A DNA stretch of 36,826 bases, taken from NCBI GenBank assembly GCA_022750115.1, contig JAKIWI010000003.1, positions 1 through 36,826 of the forward strand. The letters run 5' to 3'. Both the position numbers and the translations under genes were made by a program. Under the pieces are notes generated by a model, which made no database searches, had not been told where the DNA came from, and saw nothing but the letters and a program-made list of their open reading frames with translations. This stretch comes from Thermoplasmata archaeon (GTDB lineage Archaea > Thermoplasmatota > Thermoplasmata > Lutacidiplasmatales > UBA184). How positions within the stretch are numbered: the first letter of the stretch is position 1; each line of letters begins with the position of its first letter. Shown one piece after another: positions 15,953 through 35,679 of this stretch.

Positions 15953-15983
15953 AGTGCACCAAGACGAATCACGATGGGGCGGG

Positions 15984-15991
15984 TTAGATAG
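15984..15991 (-). promoter_or_regulatory. Weak TATA-like element upstream of the Fn3-PKD gene
   Basis: CTATCTAA on the minus strand, about 36 bases before GTG 15952, is the only AT-rich stretch near this start. Confidence 0.35.
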
Positions 15992-16222
15992 GGACCGTAA
16001 CCTCTGAGGAAGGCTCTACCGCTCCGGTCCGCCCGCCGAGCCGCGCCCGCGCCGGCGCCCCGTCCCCGGCGAGCCACGCTCCGACTGCCGGGGGGCCGGC
16101 CGCCGGGCCGAGTCGATCCGGCGGACGACGAGACCCGAGCGGCGCCCTTCCCTCGGAACGCGGTCGGTCCGAAGAGCCCGGCCGGGTGAGGGCGTTCCCA
16201 TCTTCCCCCCTCGTTCCCCGAG

Positions 16223-16230
16223 AAATTATC
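16223..16230 (+). promoter_or_regulatory. TATA box of the AbrB-like gene
   Basis: AAATTATC, centred about 27 bases before the ATG at 16254. A GGAG sequence (16247-16250) lies four bases before the start, so the short mRNA could still use ribosome pairing. Confidence 0.55.
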
Positions 16231-16253
16231 TGCCGGCGGGCGGCTAGGAGAGC

Positions 16254-16451
16254 ATGACGAACGGCGGGCGTCCGGCACCGTTCGTGAGTCACGCGGTGAA
16301 GGCCGCCCGGCGGTCCGAGTCGCTGCGGGTCACGATCCCCCAGGTGGTGGCGACGACCCTCGGGTTGCATGCGGGCGACGAACTGCGCTGGTTCCTGGAG
16401 CCCCAGTCCGGGTCCGTCCGTGTCGAAGCCCGGGCTCGACGCACCGAGTGA
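16254..16451 (+). CDS. AbrB/SpoVT-type DNA-binding protein
   Basis: A 65-residue protein with the swapped-hairpin beta-barrel signature: SLRVTIPQVVATTLGLHAGDELRWFLEP, read as strand, TIP turn, short helix, LHAGDEL turn and strand, then a last strand SVRVEARARR. The family forms dimers that bind DNA and includes antitoxins (MazE, VapB) and global regulators; in archaea many act as stand-alone regulators. No toxin gene lies on the same strand; the following gene is convergent and ends 19 bases away. The basic N-terminus (residues 12-20) may extend the DNA contact. Function within the cell is not evident. Confidence 0.8.
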   Translation: MTNGGRPAPFVSHAVKAARRSESLRVTIPQVVATTLGLHAGDELRWFLEPQSGSVRVEARARRTE

Positions 16452-16470
16452 ACCGCGACCGGTCGACCCC

Positions 16471-17673
16471 TCAGGCATCGGGGGATCGCGGACCCCGGTA
16501 TCGGGAGGCGGCGGGCTCGGCCCGCTTCGGACGGGTCGCGGCATCTGTGGGGGGGAGTTCGGGCGCGTCGGCGGTCCGGGAGAGGGTCGGCTCGAGGGAC
16601 AGTGGGGGCGCGAGGCGGAACCGCTTGCCCCGCGTCTTCCCGAGGGACTCGAGCAGGCCGCGGTCGACGAGGTCGTTCAGGTGGCGAAGGATCGTCTGCT
16701 CGCTGCGAGCGCCCACCCACCGCATCGCGTCCCGCGTCGAGAACCAGCCCGGGTCGCGTCGCGCGCGCGCGAGGAGCCGGAGGGCGGCCTCCTCGAGGCT
16801 GCCCGCGGCGGGGGGCCGCCCCAGCCAACGGGCGTTGGCCTGCGAGTAGGCATCGAGGACCGTGTCGAGGGCGTGGTCCACGAGTTCCTGGTACGACCCG
16901 GTCGCCTCGGTCCAGAGCAAGAGACGGGACGTCAGCTCCCGGGACGTTTGCGCGACGCGCGGCAGCGCGGTGAGCCCGACGTTCGGCAGCCCGAACAGAC
17001 GGAGGTAGAGGATCGCGACGGTCCGCCCGACGGTGACGTTGCCGACGGGGAACGGTCGGATGCCATGGATCGATTGGAACAGGACGGTCGCCGGGATCAG
17101 CGGGTGGTAGGTCGCCCCGACGCGGTCGACCCACTCGAGGACCGACTCGAGGTCGGGAACGATCTGCTCGGGGGGGCACGCGGTGAACACCTCGTAGCCG
17201 TCGGGGTCGTTGACGACGAGGGGCCTGGTCCGAAGATCCCCCGGGGTCCCCGGGGCCCCGAGCTCCGATAGGAGCGAGGCATGGACATCCTGGAGAAGGG
17301 CGACCGTCCACGGGGGGCGGAATCGCGCGGACTCGACCTCCAACCGGGCCTCATTGACGGCGAACCGCTCGCGGGGCGACCGCCGCCGGTCGACCGGAGC
17401 GGCCGACCGGGCCCCCGCGCCCGTCAATCCCGACCGGGAGAGGAACGCTCCGCCCGGACCCGGCGACCGCTCGAGGTCCCCGAGGAGAATCCCCGCGTAC
17501 TCCTCGACGTTCAGGACCGCCCGGTCGAGCTCGTGGTCGAGCGTGTAGACCCGGGCGGCGCGGACGGCGAAATCGAGGGGCGCGGCGACGAGCGGGCGGA
17601 ACGGCGAGCGCGAGCGGTACGCGACCGGTCGGCGCGCGTGGCAGTGGCCAAACCTGGCCGCACTGACGGCCAT
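16471..17673 (-). CDS. Fic-fold protein with degenerate catalytic motif and C-terminal winged helix
   Basis: Fic proteins transfer AMP or other groups to target proteins through a HPFx[D/E]GNGRxxR loop. This 400-residue protein has the surrounding Fic helices: a GDLRTRPLVV segment (146-154), HPLIPATVLFQSIHG (190-204), then RPFPVGNVTVGR (206-217) and AILYLRLFGLP. At the key positions the motif His is Arg (R206), the Asp/Glu is Val (V210), and the GR after GN is VT, while P207, F208, G211, N212, G216 and R217 remain. H203 lies just before it. A winged helix follows at about 294-356 (STRDAMRWV, QTILRHLNDLVDRGLL), then a disordered basic tail. It is therefore more likely a regulator or ligand-binding pseudoenzyme than an AMP transferase. 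The ATG at 17673 is supported by a TATA box 29 bases upstream. Confidence 0.78.
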   Translation of the reverse strand: MAVSAARFGHCHARRPVAYRSRSPFRPLVAAPLDFAVRAARVYTLDHELDRAVLNVEEYAGILLGDLERSPGPGGAFLSRSGLTGAGARSAAPVDRRRSPRERFAVNEARLEVESARFRPPWTVALLQDVHASLLSELGAPGTPGDLRTRPLVVNDPDGYEVFTACPPEQIVPDLESVLEWVDRVGATYHPLIPATVLFQSIHGIRPFPVGNVTVGRTVAILYLRLFGLPNVGLTALPRVAQTSRELTSRLLLWTEATGSYQELVDHALDTVLDAYSQANARWLGRPPAAGSLEEAALRLLARARRDPGWFSTRDAMRWVGARSEQTILRHLNDLVDRGLLESLGKTRGKRFRLAPPLSLEPTLSRTADAPELPPTDAATRPKRAEPAASRYRGPRSPDA

Positions 17674-17698
17674 GGCCCAAGCTCGGCCCGAGGTTCGG

Positions 17699-17705
17699 TT
17701 ATACC
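17699..17705 (-). promoter_or_regulatory. TATA box of the Fic-like gene
   Basis: GGTATAA on the minus strand, about 29 bases before the ATG at 17673. Confidence 0.6.
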
Positions 17706-17851
17706 TTGGCAGAAGCGAGTAACCTCCCCGGTCGACGGAACCGAAGGACGGCGGTCGACCGGGGTCGCGGGCGGCCGCGTCCCGGTTCAGCGTCGGGCCT
17801 CCCGGTACCGGGGAGCGGGGGGAGGGCCGGACCCGGCCCCGGGTCGCGGCG

Positions 17852-19840
17852 TCATGCCGAGACGACGGGCGGTCGAACGACGTTCAGCACCAACCCCGTG
17901 CTCGCGAGCGGGGGGACCCCGAGCGGGCGGGCCGGTTCGGCCGCCGGGACCGGCGGACCGTCCTCGGGCGCCGGCATCGTCGCGGGCCCGAGGAGGAACA
18001 ATCGGGGCACGTTCACGAGCAGGATCCCCTGGGCCGGGACGGTGTAGCCGGTAGCGAGTTTCGCCAAACCGCTCACGGGGGCGGCCAGGCTCGAATTCCA
18101 GTGAACGACCGTCGCCGTCGCGCTCGCAAGGACGCCGAGCCCGACCGAGACGGCGACCGACCGGGTGAGGTTCGCGTTGACGATCAGGATGCTCTCCGTC
18201 GTCGCGTTGAACGTCGCCACCGCCCATACCTCCGGGACCGTGGTCGCGACATGGCTCGCCACGACCGTACCCTTCGCGAGGTGGCGCAGGATCCCCGAGA
18301 ACAGCGTCCCGCTCGGCCCGGGCGCACCGTGGTAGCCGAGGAGGGCGTAGCCCAAGCGGGTCGTGGAGCTCGACTCGAGGTTGAACATCGTCAGCTGGCT
18401 GACGTTCGCCGTGAGCGCCTGCGAGACCGACGCGGCGAGGAACACCGCGTTCGCGTAGGTCCCGGCGAAGTTGGAGGGGGCCCAGCCGGGGCCGGCGTTG
18501 TACTCGTTCACGAACACCGGCAGCTTCCCGCAGCCCGAACACTCCCCGGCGATCGCCGTCCGGACCGCTGCGACGCTGTTGGTGATGTTGTCCGGTCCCG
18601 CCAGGGGTCCGTAGAACTGAGCGAGCTTCTCCTGCGACGCCCCGCTCGACGGATAGTTATGGACCGCCACCGCGGCGAGGTTCGGCCCGTCGACCTTCGC
18701 GACGTCCTGGAACCAGGCGGTGTTGCACGAGCAAGCGGCCTCGATGCCGATGAACTTGGCTCCCGGGTCGACCGCGGAGACGGCGGCGATCGCGCCCTTG
18801 ACGTCCAGGGCGTAGGCGAGCGGCGAGGCCCGGGAATGGTCCGTGGACCTCCAGTGGGTCCATGCAATCCCGTAGTGGTTCCAGCCGGTGGGCTCGTTGC
18901 CGATCGACCAGTAGTCGGGTTGGAAGCCGACCGCATGGACGATCCACTGGGCGATCGCGGCGTCCTCGCGGGAGTTGTTGTTCTCCCCCGGCAAGCTCAG
19001 GATCGCGTGGCAGTGGGGCGTCGTAGAGTCGCACCACGTCTTCAACGCGGTGAGGTCGAAGCCGCACCCGGGAGACGCCACCCCGTTCGCGCTGTACGAC
19101 CGGTCGGCCGATATGTTGCACGCGTCGGTCTGCTGCCCGTACCGAACCCAAGTGAACGGGGACGAGGCGAGGTAGCTCGTCACCGCGGAGCTCGTCGAGA
19201 TGCACGTCGCGCACGACGTCTGGGCGTCGACCGACCAGAACGTCCCGGGGGTCCGGGCGACGACCGGCCCCTCGATGAGCGACGCCGGCACGCCGCTCAG
19301 CCCCGAGGCCAGGACCCCGACCCGAACTGAGGTCGATACCGTCGCCTTGCGGGCGTCCGTGACCTTGACGGTGGCCGTGTACGACCCGGCCGAGGTGTAG
19401 GTGTGCGACGGAGTCGCCGCCGAGCTCGAGCCGGAGTCACCGAACGACCAAGAGTACCGGTAGGGCGACGAACCTCGGGTCACCGAAATTTGGAATGTCA
19501 CGTGGAGCGGGGCCGACCCTGTGGTGGGAGTCGCCGAGGCGCTGGCCCCCATCGTCCGGGACTGCTCCGTTCGGGGGGACACCGTCGTCCCGGCGCCGAA
19601 GGGACCGCCCAAGGCGCCCGGGGCCGATAGCGAACCCGAGAGGATCAGCCCGAGCGCAAGTCCCGACATGCCGAGGATCAGCGCGAGATCGAGCCATCCT
19701 CGCGTTCGGGGCACGCGCCCTGGCCCGCGCGAAGCGCGTCGGGTCGCGTTCCGGACCGAACCCCCCAGCCGCCCCGCCGGACCCCCGGAGGGGGTCGGTC
19801 GGGCGTCCGGTGGGAGCGCGACAGAGGAAATCGTCGTCAC
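17852..19840 (-). CDS. PKD domain-glycosidase (clan GH-A-like) surface protein
   Basis: Probably a membrane-tethered polysaccharide hydrolase acting outside the cell. Of 662 residues, 1-48 are basic and Pro/Gly-rich, 49-70 form a membrane anchor, and a PKD domain spans about 95-178 (YSWSFGDSG, SHTYTSAGSYTATVKV). The rest resembles a TIM-barrel glycosidase: WVRYG, ILSLPGENN, YWSIGNEPTGWNHYG with the N316-E317-P318 acid/base signature, VAVHNYP, and VFVNEYNAG with E446 as a likely nucleophile, about 129 residues later as in clan GH-A (families 39, 51, 79 and relatives). A C-terminal beta domain (about 540-620) follows. Several Cys pairs suggest disulfides. Start is GTG 19840; the protein has many sequons. 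The substrate cannot be deduced. Confidence 0.8.
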   Translation of the reverse strand: MTTISSVALPPDARPTPSGGPAGRLGGSVRNATRRASRGPGRVPRTRGWLDLALILGMSGLALGLILSGSLSAPGALGGPFGAGTTVSPRTEQSRTMGASASATPTTGSAPLHVTFQISVTRGSSPYRYSWSFGDSGSSSAATPSHTYTSAGSYTATVKVTDARKATVSTSVRVGVLASGLSGVPASLIEGPVVARTPGTFWSVDAQTSCATCISTSSAVTSYLASSPFTWVRYGQQTDACNISADRSYSANGVASPGCGFDLTALKTWCDSTTPHCHAILSLPGENNNSREDAAIAQWIVHAVGFQPDYWSIGNEPTGWNHYGIAWTHWRSTDHSRASPLAYALDVKGAIAAVSAVDPGAKFIGIEAACSCNTAWFQDVAKVDGPNLAAVAVHNYPSSGASQEKLAQFYGPLAGPDNITNSVAAVRTAIAGECSGCGKLPVFVNEYNAGPGWAPSNFAGTYANAVFLAASVSQALTANVSQLTMFNLESSSTTRLGYALLGYHGAPGPSGTLFSGILRHLAKGTVVASHVATTVPEVWAVATFNATTESILIVNANLTRSVAVSVGLGVLASATATVVHWNSSLAAPVSGLAKLATGYTVPAQGILLVNVPRLFLLGPATMPAPEDGPPVPAAEPARPLGVPPLASTGLVLNVVRPPVVSA

Positions 19841-20034: not shown

Positions 20035-20056
20035 CCCGTGGAGAAAGGTCCACGGG
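20035..20056 (+). repeat. Perfect 8-bp inverted repeat (hairpin)
   Basis: CCCGTGGA (20035-20042) and TCCACGGG (20049-20056) flank the six-base loop GAAAGG. In RNA it would form a strong stem, possibly in a leader of the downstream gene. Confidence 0.55.
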
Positions 20057-20175
20057 GGCGAGGGGCGAGCGAGCGGGGCCGCTGGTCTCGCCCGGTCGCG
20101 GACGGCGAGCCGTCGAGGTCTTCGATGCCAGACCGCCGCTCGTCGAACGTGCTTCCCCGACGGTTACGGAGCGGG

Positions 20176-20181
20176 CTTATG
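20176..20181 (+). promoter_or_regulatory. Possible TATA element of the 20215 gene
   Basis: CTTATG, about 37 bases before ATG 20215. The position is slightly far, which leaves room for the GGGAG at 20203-20207 to act as a ribosome site. Confidence 0.35.
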
Positions 20182-20214
20182 CGACCTCGCCCCAGAATTC
20201 GAAGGGAGCCCCTC

Positions 20215-21573
20215 ATGCGGGCTCGAGGGGCGTCGATGAGCGGGTCGGGCGGCACGCGGGAGCTTGCTCGCGCCGACGGGCCAGCTACGGCTCCACCCCC
20301 CACCCCCAACGGCGCCCGTCCCCGGTGGTCGGGCCGTCGTGGGCGCTGGAGGAGCGCGGGGGCGACCGCCGCCATGATCGCGGTCATGGCGGCCGTTCTC
20401 CTGCTCGCCGTTCCGGGCGTCCCGCTGCCGGGCATCCTCGAGTCCGCGGCACCGACCGACCCACCGACGTCGCGGTCTCCACCCCCCTCCGGCGACCCGC
20501 CGGTGTCGAACTCCCCGTCCCCTCTCGCCTGCAACCGGGTCACGACCCCGACGCCGTCGTCGATCCTGGTCCCGGTGGCGGGCCCTTCGAGGGCCACCGG
20601 GCGGGGCGGCAGTGTGGGGGCGACGTTCGAGTTCTCGGTCGCGAACGCGACCTCGCGCCAGTCCGGCATCACCGTCGAGGTGCCCAGCGTGTTCGCCGCG
20701 TTCCCGCTGTCCGGGGGCGGGTCCACCTCGATCTACTTCGGTCCCCGGTCGTTCCCGCTGACGGGCGGTGGCGGCTGGCTGAACGGCTCGCGGTCGTCCG
20801 CGACGCTCCCCGCCCCGAACGGACTCGCCTTTGCGGCGAACGCGACCGCGCTCCTGTCGAGCCAGAAGATCGCCGTCCTCGCCGACACTCCGTACGGGTC
20901 GGTCACGCTCGAGGTCCGCTGGCAGTGGACGGTCACGACCTCGAACGGCTCTACGACGACGGGGGCGTGGAGCGTGCCGACGAGCTCGTCCGGATGGCCC
21001 GCCTCCGTTCCCAGCATCTTCGAGCCGGCGCCCGCCATCACGCGGCTATGGGAGAGCGGGCCGAACGCGTCGATCGGCTCCAACTTCACTGCCCGCCTCG
21101 GCGGGAACGTCTCCGCGCGCTACTTCTTCCTCGAGCTCGAGTCGGCGTCGACGGGCAAGGTCGCCCAGGATCATGGTCTGACAAGCTCGGCCGGGGCGAG
21201 CTCGGCGACCGTCACGATCGTGCTGCTGAACTACGACCGGTACCTGTACCCGGGGAACTACCTCGTCCACATCCACGACGCCTGCGGGGCGCTCCTGATG
21301 AGCCTCCCTGTGAACGCGTCGTACGCGTCCTCCGCGACGCTGACGGACTACCTCCAGCCCGCCACGTGCGGTCCGGTCACATTCAACGGGGTCTCGTATG
21401 CCAACGGCCGCTCGTTCTCCGTCGCCCCTGCTTCGACCCCCTACGCGGTCACGGTCCCGTCGTGCAGCGGCCACTCGTTCCACGGCTGGCATTTCTCCGG
21501 AGGCCTCTACCTATCGTCCTCCAACAAGATCCTCGTGAGCTCGAGCGGCTCGTTCACGGTCGTCTACTCCTGA
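20215..21573 (+). CDS. Membrane-anchored surface protein, unknown function
   Basis: A 452-residue protein with a basic Pro/Gly-rich N-terminus, one hydrophobic anchor (about 48-67, AMIAVMAAVLLLAVPG) and a large extracytoplasmic part rich in Ser/Thr and NxS/T sequons. The middle (about 130-330) looks all-beta. The last 70 residues (FNGVSYANG, HSFHGWHFSGGLYL, GSFTVVYS) resemble the divergent InlB B-repeat type of beta-grasp module in bacterial and archaeal surface proteins. I do not recognise a catalytic motif. Several in-frame starts exist between 20038 (GTG) and 20236; I prefer ATG 20215 because of the GGGAG eight bases before it and a TATA-like element upstream. The head before it would be low-complexity and Arg-rich. 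It diverges from the glycosidase gene. Confidence 0.72.
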   Translation: MRARGASMSGSGGTRELARADGPATAPPPTPNGARPRWSGRRGRWRSAGATAAMIAVMAAVLLLAVPGVPLPGILESAAPTDPPTSRSPPPSGDPPVSNSPSPLACNRVTTPTPSSILVPVAGPSRATGRGGSVGATFEFSVANATSRQSGITVEVPSVFAAFPLSGGGSTSIYFGPRSFPLTGGGGWLNGSRSSATLPAPNGLAFAANATALLSSQKIAVLADTPYGSVTLEVRWQWTVTTSNGSTTTGAWSVPTSSSGWPASVPSIFEPAPAITRLWESGPNASIGSNFTARLGGNVSARYFFLELESASTGKVAQDHGLTSSAGASSATVTIVLLNYDRYLYPGNYLVHIHDACGALLMSLPVNASYASSATLTDYLQPATCGPVTFNGVSYANGRSFSVAPASTPYAVTVPSCSGHSFHGWHFSGGLYLSSSNKILVSSSGSFTVVYS

Positions 21574-22175: not shown

Positions 22176-22555
22176 GGTTTTTCCCTTCCCGCCGGAAGCA
22201 ACGCGGCGACCTTCTCCAGGAGCGCTCGACGGTCGATCGGCTTCGTGAGGTAGGCGCTGCACCCGGCCTCGATCGCCTTCACCCGGTCGCCCTTCATCGC
22301 GAACGACGTCACCGCGACGATCGGGACGGACCCAGTCTCCGGGCGGCTCCGCAATTCGCGGGTGAATTCGTAGCCGTCCTTCCCGGGGAGTCCAATGTCC
22401 ATCAGGATCAGGTCGGGGACCTTGGCGGCGATCGCCTCGGCCGCCTCCTCCGCGTCGACGGCGCGGCGGATCGAGTAGCCCGCGCTCGCGAGCAGGACCG
22501 AGGCGAGCTTGGCGTTCGTCGGGTTGTCCTCCACGATCAGGATCTCCGCGCTCAC
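22172..22555 (-). CDS. Single-domain response regulator (DivK/CheY-like)
   Basis: A 127-residue receiver with E9-D10 in ILIVEDNPTN, phosphoacceptor D53 in LILMDIGLPGKDGYE, T83 in AVTSFAM, and K105 in YLTKPID. The NPTN and GLPGKDGYEF patterns are those of receivers that pair with large hybrid-type histidine kinases. No DNA-binding or enzymatic output is attached, so it acts by protein contact or in a phosphorelay. It starts with GTG at 22555, overlapping the kinase stop by four bases (GTGA), and overlaps the next receiver by four bases. All three genes form one transcription unit. Confidence 0.94.
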   Translation of the reverse strand: MSAEILIVEDNPTNAKLASVLLASAGYSIRRAVDAEEAAEAIAAKVPDLILMDIGLPGKDGYEFTRELRSRPETGSVPIVAVTSFAMKGDRVKAIEAGCSAYLTKPIDRRALLEKVAALLPAGREKP

Positions 22556-25500
22556 GCCCGCGCCTCGGCGAGCGGGACCTCCGCCCGAGCCGCCGGCCCG
22601 TTGTGGTAGGGGAACAGCACTCGGAACGTCGTCCCCCGACCGGGGGTGCTCTCGACGTCGATGCGCCCGCCGTGGAGCTCGACGAGCTTCTTCGTCAGCG
22701 AGAGGCCGAGGCCGGAACCCTGGTACCGTCGGCTCGGGCCGGCCTCGAGCTGCTCGAACTCGCGGAACAGGCGGGGGATGTCGGTCGCCGCGATGCCGAT
22801 CCCCGTGTCCCGGACCTTGAGCTCGAAGAACCCGTCGGCCTGCGGCTGCACGGACACCTCGACCTCACCCCCCTCGTCCGTGAACTTGACGGCGTTGGAG
22901 AGGAGGTTGTAGAGGATCTGCTTGAAGCGGAGCGGGTCGAGCCAGACGCTCGTGAGGTCGCGGGCGACGTGAGTCTTCAGCTTCAGCTTCTTATCGCTCA
23001 CCATCCGCTTGACGACCGAGGCGACCTCGTCGACGGCCTGCCGTGGGGCGAACGACTCGGGGGTGAGCTCCATCTTGCCGGACTCGACCTTCGCGAGGTC
23101 GAGGACGTCGTTGATCAGCTGGAGGAGGTGGTTGCCGCTGTTGAGGATGTCGCCGAGGTACTCCCGGCGCTCGGCGTCGAGGGTCGTCGAATCGCCGTTC
23201 AAGAGGAACTCGGAGAACCCGATGATGCTGTTGAGCGGGGTGCGGAGCTCGTGCGACATGCTCGCGAGGAACTCGCTCTTGAGGCGGTTCGCCTCCTGGA
23301 CGCGCAGGTTCTGGATCTCGAGCTCGCGATTGCGCTGCTCGAGCTGGTCGCGGAGGCGCTTTTGCTCGGTCACGTCCCGGGCCGCGGCGAACACCCCGGC
23401 GAGCCGGCCCTCCGTGTCCTTGAACGTCGTGGCGTTGTAGGAGATGTCGGTGACGGCGCCGGAGGCGGTCTGCATCTGGATCTCGAAGTCGGTGACCTTG
23501 TTCTCGGCGAGGACCCGGCGGATCGCCTGGTCGGCGCGCGCGGGGTCGTTGAAGTAGTTCTTGAACGGGGTCCCGACGAGCTGTTCGCGCGGGATCCCCG
23601 TGATCACCTCCATCTGCTTGTTGACGTCGGTGATGACCCCGAGGAGGTCGGTCGTCATCAGCGCGTCGATGTTCGACTCGACGAGCCCCCGGTTGTAGTT
23701 CTTCGACTCGCGCAGCTGGGCCTCGAGCTTCTTCTGCTCCGTGATGTCGCGCGCGGCCGCGAGCACGCCGCGCACCTCGCCCGCGGTGTCGCCGAACTTG
23801 CCCGCGTTGAACGACACCGGGATCTTCTGACCGTTCCGCTTTCGCAGGGTGAGCTCGTAGTTGGTGACCAGGTTCTCGCGGAGCGCGGTCCGGACGCCCT
23901 CGTCGGCGCGCGCCGGGTCGGTGAACAGTTCGGGGAACCGGTGCCCGATGAGGCGCTTGCGGCTGAAACCCGTCAACCGAACCATCTGCTCGTTCAGGTC
24001 GGTGATGGCGAGGTCCGGGTCGACCGTGACGAGCGCATCGGGCGACGCCTCGATCAGTCCGCGGTTGTAGTTCTGTTGCTCCCGCAGCTTCTCCTCGATC
24101 TTCTTCTGCTCCGTGATGTCGCGCGCCGAGGCGAAGATCCCCTCGATCTGCCCCTCGATCCCCTTGAACACGGCCGCGTTGAGCGACACGAGGGTGTGAC
24201 GGCGATTGCGCGACTTGAGGCCGAGCTCGAAGTTCGACACCGCACCTTCCTGCAGCGTACGCCGCACGCCGGCGGCCGCCCGCTCCCCGTCGGTGAAGTA
24301 GTCTCGGAACGAGCTCCCGACGAGAGACTCGCGGGGGACCCCGGTCAGCTTGACCATCTGCTCGTTCACGTCGGTGACCACGAGGTCCGGGTCGACCATG
24401 AACAGCGCGTCGGGCGACGCCTCGATCAGGCTGCGGTTGTACAGCTGCGACTCGCTCAGCTGGTCCTGGAGCTTCTTCTGCTCTGTGATGTCGCGGGCCG
24501 AGGCGAAGATTCCCCCGACGCGGCCGGCGGTGTCGCGGAACACCGACGCATTGAACGATACCTGGACGATCCGCCCGTGCCGGCTGCGGAGCGCGAGCTC
24601 GTAGTTCGTGACGACGCCGGCCTCCAGCGTCTCGCGGACGCCGGTGGCCGCGCGGGCCGGGTCGGTGAAGTAGTCGGGGAACTGCGAGCCGATCAGCTCG
24701 AGCCGGGTGTAGCCGGTGACGTGCACCATCTGCTCGTTCACGTCGGAGATCGTGAGCGACGGGTCGACGGTGACGAGGGCGTCGGCGCTGGCCTCGATGA
24801 GGCTGCGGTTGTAGTTTTGCGACTCGCGGATCTCGCCCTCGAGCTTCTTCTGCTCGGTGACGTCCCGCGCGGCGCCGAAGATCCCGTTCAGCGCCCCGTT
24901 CGCGTCGCGGAACGTCGTCGCGTTGAACGACACGGGGGTCTCGCTCCCGGCCTGGGAGATCAGGGTGAGCTCGTAGTTGGTCAGCTGGTTCTGCTCCAGC
25001 ACGCGCCGCACGGCCGCCTCGGCCCGCGCCGGATCGCGGAAGTACGCCTTGAGCGGAGAGCCGATCAGCCGGTCCCTCGGCACCTCGGTGATCACCTCCA
25101 TCTGCCGGTTGACGTCCGTGATCACCCCGAGGACGTCGGTGGTGAGCAGGGCGTCCACCGACGACTCGATGAGGCCCCGCGTGTAGTTCTGCGACTCGCG
25201 CAACTGGGCGTTGAGCTGCTTCTGCTCCGTGACGTCGCGCGCGCTCGCGAAGATCCCCTTGACCCGGCCCTCGACGTCCTTGAACACGGAGGCGTTGAGC
25301 GAGACCGGGAGCTTGGCGCCGTTCTTCGCGCGGAGCACGAGCTCGTGGTTGGTGACGAACCCCCGCTCGAACGTGCCGCGCACGCCGGCGGTCGCGACGT
25401 TCGGCTCGGTGAAGTACTGGATGAACGCCGAGCCGATGAGCTGTTTTCGCGAGTGGCCGGTCAGCTTGACCATCTGCTCGTTGACGTCGGTGATGAGCAT

Positions 25501-27102
25501 CTCCGGGTCGACGATGACCATCGCGTCGACGGAGGCCTCGATCAGGCCCCGGTTGTAGTTCTCCGACTCGCGGAGCTGCTCCTCGAGCATCCGCTGCTCG
25601 GTGATGTCCCGGGCCGAGGCGAAGATTCCCTTCACCCGGTTCTGCGGGTCGCTGAACACCGAGGCGTTCAGCGAGATGATCCGCTGCGGTCCGGTGCGGG
25701 GTTTGAGGACGAGCTCGTAGTTGGTGACGTAGGTCTCCTGGAACGTACGGCGCACCCCGGCCACCGCGCGCTCGGGCTCGGTGAAGTAGCTCTTGAACGT
25801 GCTGCCGGTGAGCTCCTCGCGCGAGTAGCCCGTGATCTTGACCATCTCCTCGTTGACGTCGGTGATCACGAGGTCCGGGTCGACCACGACGAGGGCGTCG
25901 GGCGACGCCTCGATCAGGCTGCGGTTGTAGCTCTGCGACTCCTGCAGCTGGGCGTCGAGCTTCTTCTGGCCCGTGACGTCGCGGGCGGAGGCGAAGATCC
26001 CGCGGACCCGGCCCTCGATATCGCGGAAGATCGAGGCGTTGAACGAGACGACCTGCTCCGTCCCGTGGCGGGTCTTCAAGACGAGGTCGTAGCTCTGCAC
26101 GTACCCCTCGTCGAGGGTCTGCTTGAGGCCGTCGGTCGCCCGCTGCGGGTCGGTGAAGTAGTCGGCGAACCGGCTCCCGATCAGTTCGTCGCGGTCGTAC
26201 CCGGTCGCCGTCTCCATCTGGCGGTTCAGGTCGGTGATGACGCCGTCCTTGTCGACGGTGATCAGCGCGTCGAGCGACGCCTCGATCAGCCCCCGCGTGT
26301 AGTTCTGCGACTCGCGGAGCTGCGTCTCGAGGCGCTTTTGTTCGGTGACGTCGCGCGCCGCGGCGAACACGCCGCGGAGCTTCTGGTCGCGTCCGCGGAA
26401 CGTCGTCGCGTTGAACGCGACCACGGTTTCGGCGCCGTTCGCCGAGCGCAGCGTCAGCTCGAAGTTGGTGACGCGGTCCTCGGCGAGGACGCGGCGGATC
26501 CCTTCCTCGGCACGCGCCGGGTCGGCAAAGTATCCCTTGAGCGGGGTCCCGATGAGCTGCTCGCGCGGTCGACCGGTCAGCTCCTCGACCCGCCGGTTGA
26601 CGTCGGTGATCACCCCGAGCGTGTCGGTCGTCATGATCGCGTCGATGTTCGACTCGATCAGGCCGCGGTTGTACTCCTCGGACTCGATGAGCTTCTGATG
26701 GAGGTGCTGCTCGCTGGTGATGTCCTTCGAGACGATCAGGAACCCGAGCGGCTGGCCCGCCTGCTCGCGCAGGACCGTGAGGACGACGCGGGCCGGGAAC
26801 GCCTCGCCGCTCTTGCGGCGGCGGGTCATCACCCCTTCCCATTTGCCCTGGTCGAGGGCGGCCTTCAGGACGGTGTCGAACTTTCCGGCGGCGACGTCCT
26901 CCGATGGCAGGAGGACTCGGCTGTCCTTGCCGACGATCTCGTCGGAGGTGTAGCCGTAGATCCGGTGGGCCCCCTCGTTCCAGAGGAGAATCTTCCCGGC
27001 GGAGTCCGACGCGATGATCGAGTACTCGGTCGAGGATTCGAGAACGTTCTGCAGGAAGGTTCGATAGTCACCAAACGGTGCCGCCCGGACGCTCGCCGTC
27101 AC
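22552..27102 (-). CDS. Giant histidine kinase with ten PAS domains
   Basis: A cytosolic sensor kinase of 1516 residues with no membrane helix. A divergent PAS domain (about 17-140, IIASDSAGKILLWNEGA) is followed by nine PAS repeats of exactly 124 residues each (151-1266), then the kinase core: H-box SHELRTPLNSIIGFSEFL with H1284, N-box LYNLLSNAVKFTDEGGEV, G1 DTGIGIA, F-box LFREFEQLE and G2 GSGLGLSLTKKL. All ATP-site blocks are intact, so it should autophosphorylate. No heme- or flavin-specific residue pattern stood out in the PAS repeats. The start is GTG 27102, chosen for an AAGGAGGT site six bases upstream and a TATA box about 60 bases upstream. Two receivers follow with 4-base overlaps. 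The A/BBB subtype order of the repeats is described in the findings. Confidence 0.96.
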   Translation of the reverse strand: MTASVRAAPFGDYRTFLQNVLESSTEYSIIASDSAGKILLWNEGAHRIYGYTSDEIVGKDSRVLLPSEDVAAGKFDTVLKAALDQGKWEGVMTRRRKSGEAFPARVVLTVLREQAGQPLGFLIVSKDITSEQHLHQKLIESEEYNRGLIESNIDAIMTTDTLGVITDVNRRVEELTGRPREQLIGTPLKGYFADPARAEEGIRRVLAEDRVTNFELTLRSANGAETVVAFNATTFRGRDQKLRGVFAAARDVTEQKRLETQLRESQNYTRGLIEASLDALITVDKDGVITDLNRQMETATGYDRDELIGSRFADYFTDPQRATDGLKQTLDEGYVQSYDLVLKTRHGTEQVVSFNASIFRDIEGRVRGIFASARDVTGQKKLDAQLQESQSYNRSLIEASPDALVVVDPDLVITDVNEEMVKITGYSREELTGSTFKSYFTEPERAVAGVRRTFQETYVTNYELVLKPRTGPQRIISLNASVFSDPQNRVKGIFASARDITEQRMLEEQLRESENYNRGLIEASVDAMVIVDPEMLITDVNEQMVKLTGHSRKQLIGSAFIQYFTEPNVATAGVRGTFERGFVTNHELVLRAKNGAKLPVSLNASVFKDVEGRVKGIFASARDVTEQKQLNAQLRESQNYTRGLIESSVDALLTTDVLGVITDVNRQMEVITEVPRDRLIGSPLKAYFRDPARAEAAVRRVLEQNQLTNYELTLISQAGSETPVSFNATTFRDANGALNGIFGAARDVTEQKKLEGEIRESQNYNRSLIEASADALVTVDPSLTISDVNEQMVHVTGYTRLELIGSQFPDYFTDPARAATGVRETLEAGVVTNYELALRSRHGRIVQVSFNASVFRDTAGRVGGIFASARDITEQKKLQDQLSESQLYNRSLIEASPDALFMVDPDLVVTDVNEQMVKLTGVPRESLVGSSFRDYFTDGERAAAGVRRTLQEGAVSNFELGLKSRNRRHTLVSLNAAVFKGIEGQIEGIFASARDITEQKKIEEKLREQQNYNRGLIEASPDALVTVDPDLAITDLNEQMVRLTGFSRKRLIGHRFPELFTDPARADEGVRTALRENLVTNYELTLRKRNGQKIPVSFNAGKFGDTAGEVRGVLAAARDITEQKKLEAQLRESKNYNRGLVESNIDALMTTDLLGVITDVNKQMEVITGIPREQLVGTPFKNYFNDPARADQAIRRVLAENKVTDFEIQMQTASGAVTDISYNATTFKDTEGRLAGVFAAARDVTEQKRLRDQLEQRNRELEIQNLRVQEANRLKSEFLASMSHELRTPLNSIIGFSEFLLNGDSTTLDAERREYLGDILNSGNHLLQLINDVLDLAKVESGKMELTPESFAPRQAVDEVASVVKRMVSDKKLKLKTHVARDLTSVWLDPLRFKQILYNLLSNAVKFTDEGGEVEVSVQPQADGFFELKVRDTGIGIAATDIPRLFREFEQLEAGPSRRYQGSGLGLSLTKKLVELHGGRIDVESTPGRGTTFRVLFPYHNGPAARAEVPLAEARA
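23305..26652 (-). repeat. Nine tandem 372-bp PAS-coding repeats
   Basis: In-frame repeats without indels at 26281-26652, 25909-26280, 25537-25908, 25165-25536, 24793-25164, 24421-24792, 24049-24420, 23677-24048 and 23305-23676. The recurring linker (around ESQNYNRGLIE) and the ARD(V/I)T(E/G)Q motif mark the period. Units are diverged in DNA but keep fixed length. Confidence 0.93.
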
Positions 27103-27108
27103 TCGCTA

Positions 27109-27116
27109 ACCTCCTT
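27109..27116 (-). promoter_or_regulatory. Strong ribosome binding site of the PAS kinase
   Basis: AAGGAGGT on the minus strand, six bases before GTG 27102. Its strength contrasts with the leaderless genes around it and decides the kinase start. Confidence 0.75.
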
Positions 27117-27160
27117 CGGACCGGCACCTACTGGGGAGCCAATCGCATTTCGGTGGCGCG

Positions 27161-27168
27161 ATATAAGG
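27161..27168 (-). promoter_or_regulatory. TATA box of the PAS kinase operon
   Basis: CCTTATAT on the minus strand, about 60 bases before GTG 27102; transcription would begin about 35 bases before the start codon, leaving a leader that contains the AAGGAGGT site. Confidence 0.6.
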
Positions 27169-27265
27169 TCACACCGTCGCAAATTGGATAGGGGGTTCCC
27201 GGTCGGATACGACGCGCGGCGATTGGGGCCTCTCGGGCCATCGCGCGCCGGGGGGCGGGGTGGCC

Positions 27266-28540
27266 TCAGACTCCCGTGGCCGGGAGCGTCCAGAGCGGCT
27301 CGAGCGCCCGCCGTTCGGCGGGCGCGGACGATCCGTCCTCCGCCGCCTCGGCCGGGTCGGCACGCGGCACCGGGCCGAGCCCGAGGATCGGGTCGCTCTG
27401 GCGGAGGATCGCGACGACCTCGGGCCGGAGGATCTCGAGCGGAAGCGGCCGCCCCTCGGCGAGCGCGGAGCGGACCCGCGTCTGGCTGGTGACCGCGCGC
27501 ACCTCGGGCCGGTGCCCGCAGCTCTTCTCGGAGGCCATCTGGCCGCAGCGGGTGCAGTACGACATCTCGCGGAACCTCAGCGGGGTGACCCCGACGGAGT
27601 ACTCGTCGAAGATCTCGTGGCAGGCGTACGGCTTGTAGAACGACCCGACGCCGGCCTGGTCGCGGCCGACGATGTAGTGGCTGCATCCGTAGTTCCGGCG
27701 CACGATCGCGAAGAACAGCGCGGCGCGGGGTCCGGCGTATCGCATGGAGATGGCGAGTGTTCCGAGGGCGACGCGGGCGGGCGGGTAATACTCGGCGAGC
27801 AACGCGCGATAGGCGTCGACCACGACCTGCGGCCGGTAGTCGCCCGGCTTGAGCGGTCCGACGACCGGGTGGACGAACAGGGCGTCGACGTCGTCCCGCT
27901 CCAGCGCGAGCCGGTGGAGCTGTTCGTGCCCGGCGTGGGGAACGTTCCGGGTCTGGAACCCAGCGACGTTCCGCCATCCGTTCTTCGCGAACGTCTCGCG
28001 GCTCTGGGCCGGGGTGTACTCGAGATCCGGGAACGGAACGTCGGGGGACCGTACGAGGTCGACGCGACCCGCCACCGCCGTCGACCCCGTTGTCGCCAAG
28101 GCGGCGACGTTCGGATGACGCGGGTCGGTGGTGCCATACACGCCCCGCGCAATCGCCGTCCGGTCGAGAGGGAACGACTCGCGGAAGTGGAGCAGCGCGA
28201 AGAAGCGTCCCGCGGTGTCCAGGAGTGCGACCTCGTCGCCCGGGCGCAGGTCGGCCACAACCGCCTCCGCGGCGCGCCCCGGGGGAGTAAGAACGATCGG
28301 GATCGGCCAAGGAAGCGAGTTGGGCAGCCGCAGCGTCCGAACCACGTTCTCGATCGTCGCCGCATCCATGAATCCGTCGAGGGGGCTGTACGCCCCGACC
28401 GCGAGCTTCGCCGCGTCGAACACCTGGTCGATCTCCGGGCGGAGCTGCGGGAGTTCGGCGACCTGAAGGGCCAACCGCTCCGCTTCCTGCGGCCCGAGCT
28501 GGCGGTCGACGAGACGCCCCCCGTAGGCGGGAGGGATCAT
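27266..28540 (-). CDS. sat: Sulfate adenylyltransferase (ATP sulfurylase)
   Basis: Makes adenosine 5'-phosphosulfate (APS) and pyrophosphate from sulfate and ATP, or runs in reverse. The 424-residue protein has QTRN (196-199) and HAGH (202-205) for ATP binding, MRYAGPRAALFFAIVRRNYGCSHYIVGRD read across 266-294, GRDQAGVG (292-299), and a zinc site C329, C332, C341, H343 near the C-terminus. The length and zinc site match the homodimeric Sat of bacteria and archaea; no APS kinase domain is fused, and none is encoded nearby, nor is APS reductase. ATG 28540 is chosen because GAGGTG lies seven bases upstream and the family begins with a segment like this one; in-frame sequence farther upstream is Arg/Pro-rich. 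An HxlR regulator lies 271 bases upstream on the same strand. Confidence 0.95.
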   Translation of the reverse strand: MIPPAYGGRLVDRQLGPQEAERLALQVAELPQLRPEIDQVFDAAKLAVGAYSPLDGFMDAATIENVVRTLRLPNSLPWPIPIVLTPPGRAAEAVVADLRPGDEVALLDTAGRFFALLHFRESFPLDRTAIARGVYGTTDPRHPNVAALATTGSTAVAGRVDLVRSPDVPFPDLEYTPAQSRETFAKNGWRNVAGFQTRNVPHAGHEQLHRLALERDDVDALFVHPVVGPLKPGDYRPQVVVDAYRALLAEYYPPARVALGTLAISMRYAGPRAALFFAIVRRNYGCSHYIVGRDQAGVGSFYKPYACHEIFDEYSVGVTPLRFREMSYCTRCGQMASEKSCGHRPEVRAVTSQTRVRSALAEGRPLPLEILRPEVVAILRQSDPILGLGPVPRADPAEAAEDGSSAPAERRALEPLWTLPATGV

Positions 28541-28811
28541 CCGGCACCTCGTCCCGGGAGGTCGCCGGCCGTACCTCCGACGGCCCGGTCCTGGGGCGCG
28601 GCGGGATGACGCGGGGGTCGGACCGCGAACGGGGTGGGCCGGCCTTCGAGCCCACTCGCGCGACTCCCCCGCGTCATCGGCCCCCGTCGCCCGCTCCCTT
28701 CCAACGGACTCAGCCAAGGGAGCGCTCGCTCGCAGGCGATCCGGCCGGATGGCCGTTGGCTATCCTTTGGACCGGTGAACGAGGGCACAGGACCTCGGAG
28801 CGGCTTCGGTG
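28541..28811. other. Gap between HxlR gene and sat
   Basis: 271 bases without a supported gene. I find no clear TATA box close to the sat start; AT-rich bases occur only near 28754-28764 (CTATCCTTT). Confidence 0.4.
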
Positions 28812-29483
28812 TTAAAGGGCGACCGTTTCCACCCGGGAACGGCCTATCGGATTCCGCACGCGTCGTGTCGCGGTGCGAAGCGGCGTGTCCTCCTCGAGGG
28901 GCTCGCGGTCCGCTCCCGCAAGGTCGCGAAAGCCGGCCGGGACCCTTCCGACACCCTTGCCGGTTCGCTCGGGCCTCGCGAGGTCCCCCGCGATGGGTCG
29001 GACGGTCGGGGTATGGTCGGTGAAGCGCAGGTAGAGGAGCACCGGCTGGGAAAGCCAGGCGACCGTCCACCCGCGTTCCGTGAGCGAGTAGCGGACGCGC
29101 GGGGGTCGAGAGTCGAGGATCTCCCGCTGGACCATCCCGTTCTGCTCGAGCTCCTTGAGCTTCAGCGAGAGGACACGGGGGCTGATGCCGTGGAGGCTCC
29201 GCCGGAGCTCCTCGAAGCCGGCGGACGGGAGCGCGTGGAGCGCGACGAGGACGTCCGAAGACCATTTGCCGAAGATCGACCGGACCAGATGGAGGTCGGC
29301 CCGCGCCGCGGCCAAGGGGTCCGGTTCCGACTCCGAGAGGTCGCGTACCCTCTCGGCGAGTCGGACCGCCGATTCCCGGAACTCCCGGAACTCGCGCCGG
29401 ATCTCCCCCTCGGCCGGGCTCGTCGCCGACGGTTCCAGGTTCGACCGTGTCACGGGGCTCGTCGGTCTCGTCGGCGCCATCAT
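28812..29483 (-). CDS. HxlR-family winged-helix regulator
   Basis: A 223-residue transcription factor. The HxlR core lies at about residues 65-150: IFGKWSSDVLVALHALPSAGF, ELRRSLHGISPRVLSLKLKELEQNGMV, and the wing REILDSRPPRVRYSLTERG, then a long helix. HxlR proteins bind as dimers to palindromes and often sense reactive electrophiles or aldehydes via a cysteine; none is near the usual N-terminal place here. Both an N-terminal extension (about 60 residues) and a basic C-terminal tail (about 45 residues) exceed the family's usual 100-130 residues. ATG codons at 29483 and 29480 compete. A TATA box and a perfect palindrome lie just upstream, which suggests autoregulation. It precedes sat on the same strand. 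Confidence 0.85.
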   Translation of the reverse strand: MMAPTRPTSPVTRSNLEPSATSPAEGEIRREFREFRESAVRLAERVRDLSESEPDPLAAARADLHLVRSIFGKWSSDVLVALHALPSAGFEELRRSLHGISPRVLSLKLKELEQNGMVQREILDSRPPRVRYSLTERGWTVAWLSQPVLLYLRFTDHTPTVRPIAGDLARPERTGKGVGRVPAGFRDLAGADREPLEEDTPLRTATRRVRNPIGRSRVETVAL

Positions 29484-33261: not shown

Positions 33262-35679
33262 TCAGCGACCCAGAATCACCCACTCGGAATTCTGGAACTC
33301 CGGGCGGAACCCGAATGTCGCCTCATAGTACGTCAGCTCGACGGAACCGTAGGTCCGGTTCGGCCAGAGCAGGAACGCGATCGATTGGTTGGTCAGAAAT
33401 GTGGGGGTGCTGAGCAGCGGAGGAAGGGGACTCGCCGGTCGCGACGCCCCCGGCGACGAGAACTCGAGGGTCACCCCGAACGGGGAACTACCGTTCGAGT
33501 CCGGCACGACCGCGTTCCAGCTCGCGGACGGGCCCGCCGCCTTGCCGGTCTCCCATCGCGGGGCGACCGAGAAGCCGACGGTCGTGTTCAGGTGGACGCG
33601 GTCGGGATACTGGCCGAGCTTGCCCGAAACGTCGACGGTGAGCCCGGTCACGCGCGTTACCGAAGAATCGATCGTGTCGGTCGCGAGCGTGGTCGAGTTC
33701 GCCGGCGGACCGGTGAGCCCGACGGTGAGCGAGCTCACCGAGACGCCCGGGTCCGGCGACACCCGGAACGTGACCGTGGCCGAACCGTCGGGCGACATCG
33801 CGCCCGTTTCGACGACCTTCGCCACCGGCGTCGTGTAGACGACCGTCAGCGCCCCGCCGGGGCTCCCCGGCGCGACGAGGACCGGCGGAGACCCGCCCGC
33901 CAGCGGGTAGGTGGCGACCCCGCCGGGCCCCGAGGCGTTCAGCTCCAGGTTTCCCGCCGGGAGGCGGACGGCGGGGAACGGCACGCCTTCGATGTACGGC
34001 GTGTACATCGGCGCCTGGCTCATCGCGCTCGTGGCGAAGCCTGAGAACGATAGGGCCGATTGCGGGCTGACGAGGGTGTACTGCGAGCAGAGCGCCCAGT
34101 ACGTCTCCTGGCTTTGCGTGACCTGGAACGGGTCGAACAGGAGCCAAACGGGCCCGACGGTCAACGCGTTCCGCTCCGTCAACGCCTCCGTCCACCGGGC
34201 CGAGGACGGTACCGTGAGGACCGTCCCGGCGCGCGGGTTCGCGTGGAGCCACCGCTCCGCCTGGAGGAACGGCGCGTCGTGGGCGACGGCGGTGCTGGCC
34301 GCCTGGTTGTTCTCGGTGACGGGCACGGTGACGAAGGCGGCCACGGCGAGCAGCGCGATGGCGACGGTGATCGATGTGATCGCGAACGCGGCCCGCGGAG
34401 CCGGCCCGGAGGGGCGCCACGGCGGCGCGACCGAGATCGAGGGACCAGCCCCGGGCTCGAGCCGGGGCGGGGCCACCGGCGCGGGCAGGAACGTCGACGC
34501 GAAACCTCGCTCCACCGCGAGAAGCGCGACCAGGAAGAACGGCAGCGGGAGGAAGTACAGTAGCCGCGTGTAGTCGGTATCGACGTGCGCGAGGTAGCCA
34601 ATGCCCGGGACCGCGAGGGCCGCGCTGAGCCAACCCGCGGCGATCACGAGCCGCGTGTCCGCGCGACCCGGAACGAGGTGGGCGAGCACCAACACGGAGA
34701 GGAGCGCGACCAGGGGCGCGAGCGCGAGGAGCGCGGCCGTGGGGAGCGGCGGAAGGTACACCGGCGTCCCGATCGGCAGCGCGGCCGGCGCCCGTCCGAG
34801 CGGGGAGAACAGTTCTCCGACGTTGTCGATGAAGTACGCCGCCGGATTCGCGGTGAAGTAGCTCGGGTGGGAGATGCCGAGCCGCGCGGTCACCTCCGAG
34901 AACCCGACGATGGCGACGCCGACGGCGGCGAGCCCGATCAGGTTGGCGCGATGGAGCAGGAACCGGAGCGCCACCTTCCTCGTGAGCAGCAGGAAGAGCG
35001 TCACCACGGCGAAGATACTGAACAGCTCGAGGGCCGAGAGGTCGTGGCCGAAGTACGTGAGGCCGAGGAACGCGTACATCAGGGCGCCGTCGCGCGTCCT
35101 CTTCGAGCGCACGAACGCGAGCATCGCGACCAGCGCCTCGTTCATCAACACGAACCCGAGGAGGTTCGGGTATCCGCCCCAGAACAGCATCTGGATCGTC
35201 GACCCCGAGAGTACGGCGAACCCGACGAGCGCGACCTGGAGGGGCCCCGACGTGAGGAACCGCCGGGCGAGGTGGACGACGGACAGGCCGTACAGCAGGA
35301 ACAGCCCGATCCCGAGGATGTCCGCGGCGACGAGCGGGTTCCCCGTCGCGAGGACGAGCCCGCCGAGGAACGGGAACATCAGCGGGGAGTAGAACAGGAC
35401 CTGGTTCGCCGGGTCGGGCGCGGTGGGGAGCCCGACGTAGCCGTACGAGATCGCGAGCCAGTGGCCGGGGTCGACCCCCGGCGGGACCGGGGCCTGTGCG
35501 AAGGCGAACGCGACGAGGGCGGTGGCGAACGCGACGAGGCCGAGCATCGGTACGAGGTACCACGCGCTCGCCGCGCCCCGGGGCCGGAGGAATCGGTGGA
35601 CGACCCCGAACGCCTGGCCCGCTTCCGTGGGTTCTGCGGCGGGCCCGGGCGGCAACATCACGTGCGCGGGGACGCTCAT
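33262..35679 (-). CDS. Multi-pass membrane protein with large extracytoplasmic C-terminal domain
   Basis: An 805-residue protein; the N-terminal 470 residues hold about 11-13 membrane helices in the style of GT-C glycosyltransferases and related proteins (first helix at about 40-62, a loop with YVGLPTAPDPANQVLFYSPL, then NPAAYFIDNVGELFSP). No clear DxD or Asp-Glu catalytic motif is evident in the first loop. A linker (about 405-440) and a final helix (about 435-458) lead to a C-terminal beta-rich domain rich in Ser/Thr and sequons. The C-terminal part, from AHDAPFLQAERWLH onward, aligns with the partial gene at 35732-36826. Either protein could build or export surface glycans. No TATA box is clear upstream, so it is probably transcribed with the preceding gene (52-base gap). 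Confidence 0.75.
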   Translation of the reverse strand: MSVPAHVMLPPGPAAEPTEAGQAFGVVHRFLRPRGAASAWYLVPMLGLVAFATALVAFAFAQAPVPPGVDPGHWLAISYGYVGLPTAPDPANQVLFYSPLMFPFLGGLVLATGNPLVAADILGIGLFLLYGLSVVHLARRFLTSGPLQVALVGFAVLSGSTIQMLFWGGYPNLLGFVLMNEALVAMLAFVRSKRTRDGALMYAFLGLTYFGHDLSALELFSIFAVVTLFLLLTRKVALRFLLHRANLIGLAAVGVAIVGFSEVTARLGISHPSYFTANPAAYFIDNVGELFSPLGRAPAALPIGTPVYLPPLPTAALLALAPLVALLSVLVLAHLVPGRADTRLVIAAGWLSAALAVPGIGYLAHVDTDYTRLLYFLPLPFFLVALLAVERGFASTFLPAPVAPPRLEPGAGPSISVAPPWRPSGPAPRAAFAITSITVAIALLAVAAFVTVPVTENNQAASTAVAHDAPFLQAERWLHANPRAGTVLTVPSSARWTEALTERNALTVGPVWLLFDPFQVTQSQETYWALCSQYTLVSPQSALSFSGFATSAMSQAPMYTPYIEGVPFPAVRLPAGNLELNASGPGGVATYPLAGGSPPVLVAPGSPGGALTVVYTTPVAKVVETGAMSPDGSATVTFRVSPDPGVSVSSLTVGLTGPPANSTTLATDTIDSSVTRVTGLTVDVSGKLGQYPDRVHLNTTVGFSVAPRWETGKAAGPSASWNAVVPDSNGSSPFGVTLEFSSPGASRPASPLPPLLSTPTFLTNQSIAFLLWPNRTYGSVELTYYEATFGFRPEFQNSEWVILGR

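Follow-up and report, generated by a model that had tools for sequence, protein, structure and literature searches.

Why would an archaeal histidine kinase carry nine PAS domains of one length, in an order that repeats every four domains, in front of its catalytic core? This question is raised by a gene of a Thermoplasmata archaeon (Lutacidiplasmatales) located on a contig of 36,826 nucleotides (GenBank accession number JAKIWI010000003.1). The stretch analysed, termed the window, is an entire contig of a 2.12-Mb draft genome that is 90% complete. Its nearest named relatives were mostly Thermoplasmata MAGs with AcS isolate names, such as those reported from acidic soils as Lutacidiplasmatales; the main text of that paper contains no occurrence of PAS or histidine kinase (PMC9287336).

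The kinase gene starts with GTG and encodes 1516 amino acids, in which PAS1 is followed by nine PAS units of 124 residues, a HisKA domain and a HATPase_c domain, as read from the open reading frame, its translation and Pfam (Table 1). Pfam analysis indicated ten PAS stretches, one HisKA (aa 1275–1342) and one HATPase_c (aa 1389–1499); the cut-off of PF00989 was exceeded at ten places, and TIGR00229 also matched ten stretches. The protein was assigned to the HisKA type by the scores of PF00512 (79.1 bits) and PF02518 (107.3 bits), both above cut-off. SHELRTPLN is presumably the phosphoacceptor His box, and GIGI and GLGL were taken to be the HATPase_c boxes. PAS1 had 3ewk (MmoS) as its nearest solved relative by sequence, followed by other sensory-box chains and by chains of the FixL and NifL types. 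The GC contents at the three codon positions of the gene were 0.65, 0.41 and 0.96, and a long ORF on the opposite strand (22603–27492, plus) was taken as an antisense by-product of this high-GC repeat gene. Membrane segments appear to be absent, with none among the Pfam matches, and the kinase is probably cytosolic. Its HisKA domain was the only one matched in its own draft genome, in which four HATPase_c and five Response_reg matches were also found, two of the latter in the kinase operon.

Table 1 Features of the kinase operon and its upstream neighbours in the window
Feature	Position	Strand	Evidence
HxlR-type regulator, upstream of kinase	28812..29483	-	PF01638; synteny
ATP sulfurylase, upstream of kinase	27266..28717	-	PF01747; synteny
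Multi-PAS histidine kinase gene	22552..27102	-	ORF, Pfam
PAS1, N-terminal, separate class (P)	26668..27072	-	PF08447/PF00989
PAS unit 2, class A	26296..26667	-	unit alignment, class profiles, tree
PAS units 3-5, class B triplet	25180..26295	-	unit alignment, class profiles, tree
PAS unit 6, class A	24808..25179	-	unit alignment, class profiles, tree
PAS units 7-9, class B triplet	23692..24807	-	unit alignment, class profiles, tree
PAS unit 10, class A, adjoins kinase core	23320..23691	-	unit alignment, class profiles, tree
HisKA domain	23077..23280	-	Pfam
HATPase_c catalytic domain	22606..22938	-	Pfam
REC1, single-domain receiver, 127 aa	22172..22555	-	PF00072 E 2.4e-28; GTGA overlap with kinase stop
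REC2, second receiver-like gene, 175 aa	21648..22175	-	PF00072 E 3.9e-7 on longer ORF; ATGA overlap with REC1

A preliminary description of this DNA had noted nine PAS repeats of identical length at 23305–26652, and all eight start-to-start steps in the kinase were indeed exactly 124 residues. We placed the array at aa 146–1261 (window 26667 down to 23320), the former coordinates being the same array in a register five residues later. In that later register, the reported signature (Ser at position 1, TTD-x-LGVITDVN, NATTF and AARDVTEQ) was present in all three of units 2, 6 and 10, termed class A, and Ala at position 1 together with VD was present in all six of the others, termed class B, giving the order A-BBB-A-BBB-A. 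Identities among the window units were 55–64% for A-A, 54–64% for B-B and 43–54% for A-B pairs. By plain arithmetic, the chance that three special units among nine fall at a spacing of four is 1 in 84.

The array was then sought in other genomes. When genome_contigs was scanned with the window protein, 78 loci were obtained from the best 80 of 443 relatives. Seventeen loci, taken from the best matches to the window protein and hence a choice that favours full-length arrays but no particular A/B order, contained complete arrays in one frame: six archaeal (L005–L009, L011) and eleven bacterial (L010, L012–L020, L022). The titles of the bacterial loci named Deltaproteobacteria, Ignavibacteria, Myxococcales or Anaeromyxobacter, ANGP1, Planctomycetota, Schekmanbacteria and Gammaproteobacteria. 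In the window and in 17 of the 17 loci, ABBB-ABBB-A was preceded by a first PAS. The first PAS of L019 was a weaker P match (120 bits) that scored as B in another scan; additional P-type PAS domains stood in front in L010, which has two there, and before the kinase, one each, in L013–L019 and L022. Two second copies were also complete: L123, in the genome of L024, has P-P-ABBB-ABBB-A with 124 spacing at 8 of 8 steps, and L124, in the genome of L018, has P-A-BB-A-BBB-A-P, in which one B is absent, with 124 spacing at 7 of 7. Thus, of the 20 complete arrays (7 archaeal and 13 bacterial, all from draft genomes), 19 had the A-BBB-A-BBB-A order, the exception being the bacterial paralogue L124. Homologues with unrelated repeat numbers and order, which would have spoken against the preliminary description, were not what was found: number and order are common to 18 of the 19 other complete arrays. 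Seven arrays truncated at the end of a contig or interrupted by a break in frame (L021, L024, L025, L026, L027, L031 and L033) were left out of the 20; their visible parts fit the A/B order, except for L031, which is too broken to judge. The arrays of L024, L031 and L033 are spread over several frames, representing either assembly errors in repeats or decaying genes.

Spacing was also nearly constant. Among the first 18 arrays, 141 of 144 intervals were 124 residues (8/8 in the window and 133/136 in the 17 loci), the exceptions being 123 in L010, 125 in L011 and 123 in L018. As a control, five non-family proteins with at least four detected PAS domains, from 249 ORFs of the fetched loci, showed no interval of 124 among 19 (s.d. 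4.7; four larger gaps dropped). One of these five controls, L052 from Elusimicrobia, has nearly regular spacing (127, 126, 127, 127, 127), and L028, which has three B-like units and lies outside the control set, has one spacing of 124; fixed length alone is therefore not unique. In the loci seen, the family is set apart by fixed length combined with the A/B period.

Parts of the array were also seen by themselves. In 16 loci, mostly of Geobacter type or Desulfuromonadales (L034–L041, L043–L046, L055, L059, L060 and L077), a single strong A-type PAS (181–193 bits) was the last PAS match of the ORF, and class A may commonly serve as the transducer module on the kinase side. Three strong B-like matches stood consecutively, with no adjoining A units, in L028 (Ignavibacteria) and in L030 (Polaribacter), which suggests that BBB may itself be a module. 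L042 (Alphaproteobacteria) and L032 (Legionella drozanskii) had short mixed arrays of P and A, and their kinase cores group within bacterial group I (see below); the impression is of arrays that have lost their B triplets.

In a sample of 400 genomes of the archaeal class, 20 matched at E 1e-60 or better, and the long form was limited to one family. Bacterial spread, known from the best 80 of the 443 relatives and from 60 genomes around L013, was also sporadic: among those 60 (L013's own and 59 relatives), the gene was found at 1e-200 only in L013's own. The array GC content ranged from 43 to 70% and, in loci with flanking sequence, was near that of the flanks. This similarity and the scattered occurrence among several phylum labels fit transfer among bacteria and from bacteria to archaea, with amelioration afterwards; all the genomes are drafts or were assembled from metagenomes, and binning errors are possible for single cases. 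Carriage by a virus or a plasmid was set aside: six stretches in viral_contigs matched a pattern derived from the window protein, and none of them was a relative. Plasmid matches had an identity below 60% throughout the best 5000 listed, and 24–27% in ten of these.

We next asked how the order had been kept. In a tree of 162 units from 18 proteins, all 54 A units separated from all 108 B units with a support of 0.995 and no unit crossed the split, so that the 2nd, 6th and 10th PAS group together as the preliminary description had predicted. In archaea, each of the nine positions formed its own clade (7/7 sequences each, support 0.84–0.997). The bacterial arrays fell into two groups, I with 8 proteins and II with 3, with clean position clades at 5 of 9 positions (2, 3, 4, 7 and 8) and at 8 of 9 (all but 6), respectively; in group I, positions 6/10 and 5/9 were partly mixed, and 4 joined 7 (0.989). 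Between the three lineages, the only positions to join were position 9 in archaea and in group II, with weak support (0.73).

Constrained trees of ten proteins (90 units) were compared. Strict position orthology across lineages was rejected, the forced tree being worse by 279 lnL (AU 2e-52). Block duplication in register, taken as the only history for all lineages together, {2,6,10},{3,7},{4,8},{5,9}, was worse by 73 lnL and was also set aside (AU 0.014, KH 0.028), although one of the three tests, SH (0.096), did not reject it. Trees in which A and B each form clades lineage by lineage were not rejected (AU 0.154). In-register single pairs do exist (archaeal 4 with 8, support 0.76; group I 5 with 9), and pairwise DNA comparison of the window units ranked 4-8 first, followed by 2-10, 4-5 and 5-7. 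Of the block duplication proposed in the preliminary description, the period of four proved visible in evolution, in a six-PAS gene that lacks units 5–8 and in an exchange at an offset of four in L015; the expectation that units 2–5 would be closest to units 6–9 in register was not supported by the forced tree or the window pairs. In bacterial L015, DNA identity is 91% for units 5/9 and 93% for units 6/10, with identical runs of 108 and 105 bases, which shows a recent exchange or copy at an offset of four units across a B/A border.

These results fit homogenisation of A with A and of B with B within lineages better than a simple shared in-register block duplication. From the tree and the constraint tests, either units were swapped with others of their own class, A or B, within each lineage and the order stayed unmoved or, less likely, the order arose repeatedly. 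Another reading is that the array was grown and kept alike by gene conversion, with number and order little constrained beyond unit folding. Homogenisation within lineages, with strict orthology rejected so clearly, would be expected from it, as would the recent conversion in L015, the 87% DNA identity of units 6 and 10 in L013, and the variable number of units (1, 5, 8 or 9). Conversion alone, however, would mix A with B, whereas 0 of 162 units cross the split, and it leaves unexplained an identical order in lineages that have almost no position clades in common. Moreover, purifying selection acts on each array unit: dN/dS of the whole array against L006, L008 and L005 was 0.10–0.17, and 0.04–0.27 per unit. 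Values against L007 were higher (0.27–0.44) and were given little weight, because dS was close to that of the nearer pairs despite a larger protein difference. We regard conversion as the whole explanation as distinctly unlikely.

We judge it very unlikely that each lineage instead built A-BBB-A-BBB-A from a short P-A kinase and converged on the order. The lineage-wise A and B clades would allow it, and candidate starting points exist in the short P-A kinases of archaea and in the Geobacter-type loci where a single A-type PAS ends the series. The nine-unit order, the 124-residue length and the adjoining receiver would nevertheless have to arise three times, and position 9 of archaea joins that of bacterial group II.

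Besides the ten-PAS genes, the sample of the archaeal class holds one six-PAS gene (G198; P-ABBB-A) and six two-PAS genes (P-A; L085, L086, L087 and L110–L112, the last three also numbered L132–L134). The five units of the six-PAS gene clustered with positions 2, 3, 4, 9 and 10 (ultrafast bootstrap 93, 91, 89, 100 and 100); hence units 5–8, one four-unit period, are absent and A-BBB-A is retained. Its first unit is a weak A, at 88.6 versus 80.5 bits, and a tie in another scan was scored B. The single A unit of the six two-PAS orthologues clustered with position 10 (100). A tree of the kinase core had one clade of ten-PAS archaea (98.5/100) and one of two-PAS archaea (98.6/100), and it joined all archaea weakly (68/67); since, in addition, the outgroups were not one clade, the root is not firm. 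The short forms were taken as derived from the long form because the latter is common to bacteria and, for the six-PAS gene, because its units belong to separate position clades; this order of events is thus the probable one. As orthologues with five units or one persist, nine units are not indispensable. We propose that the length of the arm alters by recombination, mostly in steps of a whole period; L124 (A-BB-A-BBB-A) represents a change by one unit, not four. The order itself appears to be important, as near-same order occurs in several bacterial groups and the shorter arm lacks exactly four modules.

The predicted structure of the array was then examined. An AlphaFold2 monomer model built with 18 sequences contained nine PAS folds, with most core blocks at pLDDT 70–88, linker helices at about 36–60, and a pTM of 0.27. 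In the model, helix 108–129 leads from unit 2 towards unit 3, and most other junctions are predicted to be alike. The folds and the helices directed towards the next unit make a rod plausible; with such linker scores and pTM, it is unproved. A separate model of unit 9 to the HATPase domain had a mean pLDDT of 55, with the PAS part below 50, and was set aside. The best fold matches of the array model were PpsR (4hh2), DosP, LOV-HK, NifL and FixL. The A and B profiles reached chains of plant phytochrome, WalK and 3ewk, and units 2 and 7 searched singly against the PDB found no chain at E 1e-4.

The largest A/B differences lay at unit positions 17, 60, 97, 29, 14, 65, 25, 88 and 89, in the A-B loop, helices C and F and strands A, G, H and I. 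Mean JS divergence between the classes was 0.07 and 0.13 in the two linker helices. Of the eight core elements, six had values of 0.19–0.38; the other two, strand B (0.07) and helix D (0.09), were as alike between A and B as the linkers. Mapped on secondary structure, these differences suggest that A and B would be two chamber types on common linkers. A LOV photoreceptor requires a reactive Cys in helix E, and a FixL-type haem PAS requires a conserved proximal His in helix F. The 1516 residues of the kinase contain no Cys, and Cys occurred in the family units only at position 28 (39/162 units, none in the window). No position of the 162 units had a conserved His or Trp, the commonest His being 18/162 at position 77. 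On these grounds, neither a LOV signature in the kinase nor a FixL-type haem signature in the array units was found.

Ligand-free units could instead form a ruler or docking scaffold, with a rod that fixes a distance and A units that present a docking face for a partner at every fourth unit. Such a role would account for the strict length and period and for the absence of recognisable cofactor residues, and PAS extensions can mediate oligomerisation, as described for PpsR, the best fold match (4hh2; PMC3949515). Yet the A/B differences, as placed by secondary structure and not by coordinates, are not confined to one element but occur in a number of core strands and helices, and natural orthologues manage with one or five units. 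We consider the scaffold unlikely, and return to two pocket classes as the preferred reading.

The gene neighbourhood points to a partner of the kinase. A REC1 relative followed the kinase in 24 of the 24 loci whose sequence extends far enough (12 archaeal and 12 bacterial); outside this count are L015, L021 and L086, which end first, and L024–L027, L031 and L033. Gene order thus suggests that the kinase pairs with REC1. REC2 was matched in 11 distinct archaeal loci and in no bacterial one. ATP sulfurylase was matched beside six of the seven other long archaeal arrays (L005–L009 and L021, of which L005 has 98 residues only; not L011), and a link of the array to sulfur metabolism is possible; beside the six-PAS and two-PAS forms, whose flanks are short, it was unmatched. 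HxlR was upstream of six of the seven other long archaeal arrays (not L011) and of all seven short archaeal orthologues, so that the short genes have the same HxlR and REC1 neighbours as the long form. Archaeal-type genes elsewhere in the window encode deoxyhypusine synthase, signal-peptide peptidase, an eIF-5/eIF-2B-domain protein and a class I tRNA synthetase. PKD- and fn3-domain proteins and a Fic-domain protein lie near the kinase operon (14582–19840), and the large ORFs at 33262–35679 and 20038–21573 had no Pfam match and have relatives in archaeal loci.

Here, we propose a model, to which we give about an even chance, in which the array provides the input to a cytosolic histidine kinase of an old, selected architecture, P-(A-BBB)n-A-HisKA-HATPase with n=2, and serves as a phased signal-integrating rod with two pocket classes. 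The kinase would most likely act as a parallel dimer, with connecting helices joining its nine PAS pairs into a rod. Every PAS may be a chamber that accepts a small ligand or registers a metabolic or redox state; A and B would supply the two chamber types, and the A unit adjoining HisKA would act as a transducer. Equal unit length would hold the modules in phase, and changes would add or spread cooperatively to HisKA, which would phosphorylate the overlapping REC1 and perhaps REC2. Both receivers are without a recognised output domain and would act through protein contact. A further step, which is unlikely, is a structural period of four: each 124-residue module would rotate the rod by about a quarter turn, A units would face the same side once per turn, and whole turns would be gained or lost, making the arm a length-tunable allosteric antenna moved between bacteria and archaea with its receiver.

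Several known systems resemble this kinase in part. According to Galperin et al. 2018 (PMC5847659), archaeal histidine kinases are often cytosolic, with several PAS domains and stand-alone REC partners, and a bacterial origin has been proposed; the window kinase is alike in these three traits as given there, and its family adds two classes at a period of four, a constant 124 residues and the same order in bacteria. TIGR00229 sensory-box proteins match at the ten stretches noted above and differ in lacking the A/B period and the 124 spacing (0/19 in the controls, one of which is near-regular at 126–127). PpsR is a triple-PAS regulator, and its PAS has helical extensions (PMC3949515); it differs in having three PAS domains, in being a transcription factor and in its 17–20% identity to the kinase, and the TM-scores against it are low because the geometry of the model is not fixed. 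The redox and oxygen sensors MmoS, NifL and FixL resemble PAS1 by sequence alone, and array units 2 and 7 singly reach no PDB chain. The preliminary description knew of no long PAS kinase with this period; we found no description of one in open-licence papers, although the architecture itself turned out to be common to many genomes. A multi-PAS histidine kinase is a known kind; what stands out here is that the arrays follow a period of four, from which one departure was seen, and that natural variants of different length share one gene neighbourhood.

How signals pass and combine along long PAS arrays is hard to study in irregular arrays. This family offers a matched natural series of one, five and nine array units before the same kinase core in one gene neighbourhood, and this series, together with two classes in fixed order, constant length and the only HisKA kinase detected in a 90% complete genome, makes it a clean test system. 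Two questions could be put to it: do signals that travel along a PAS rod sum, cooperate or pass through gates, and is there a constraint on the phase of the modules?
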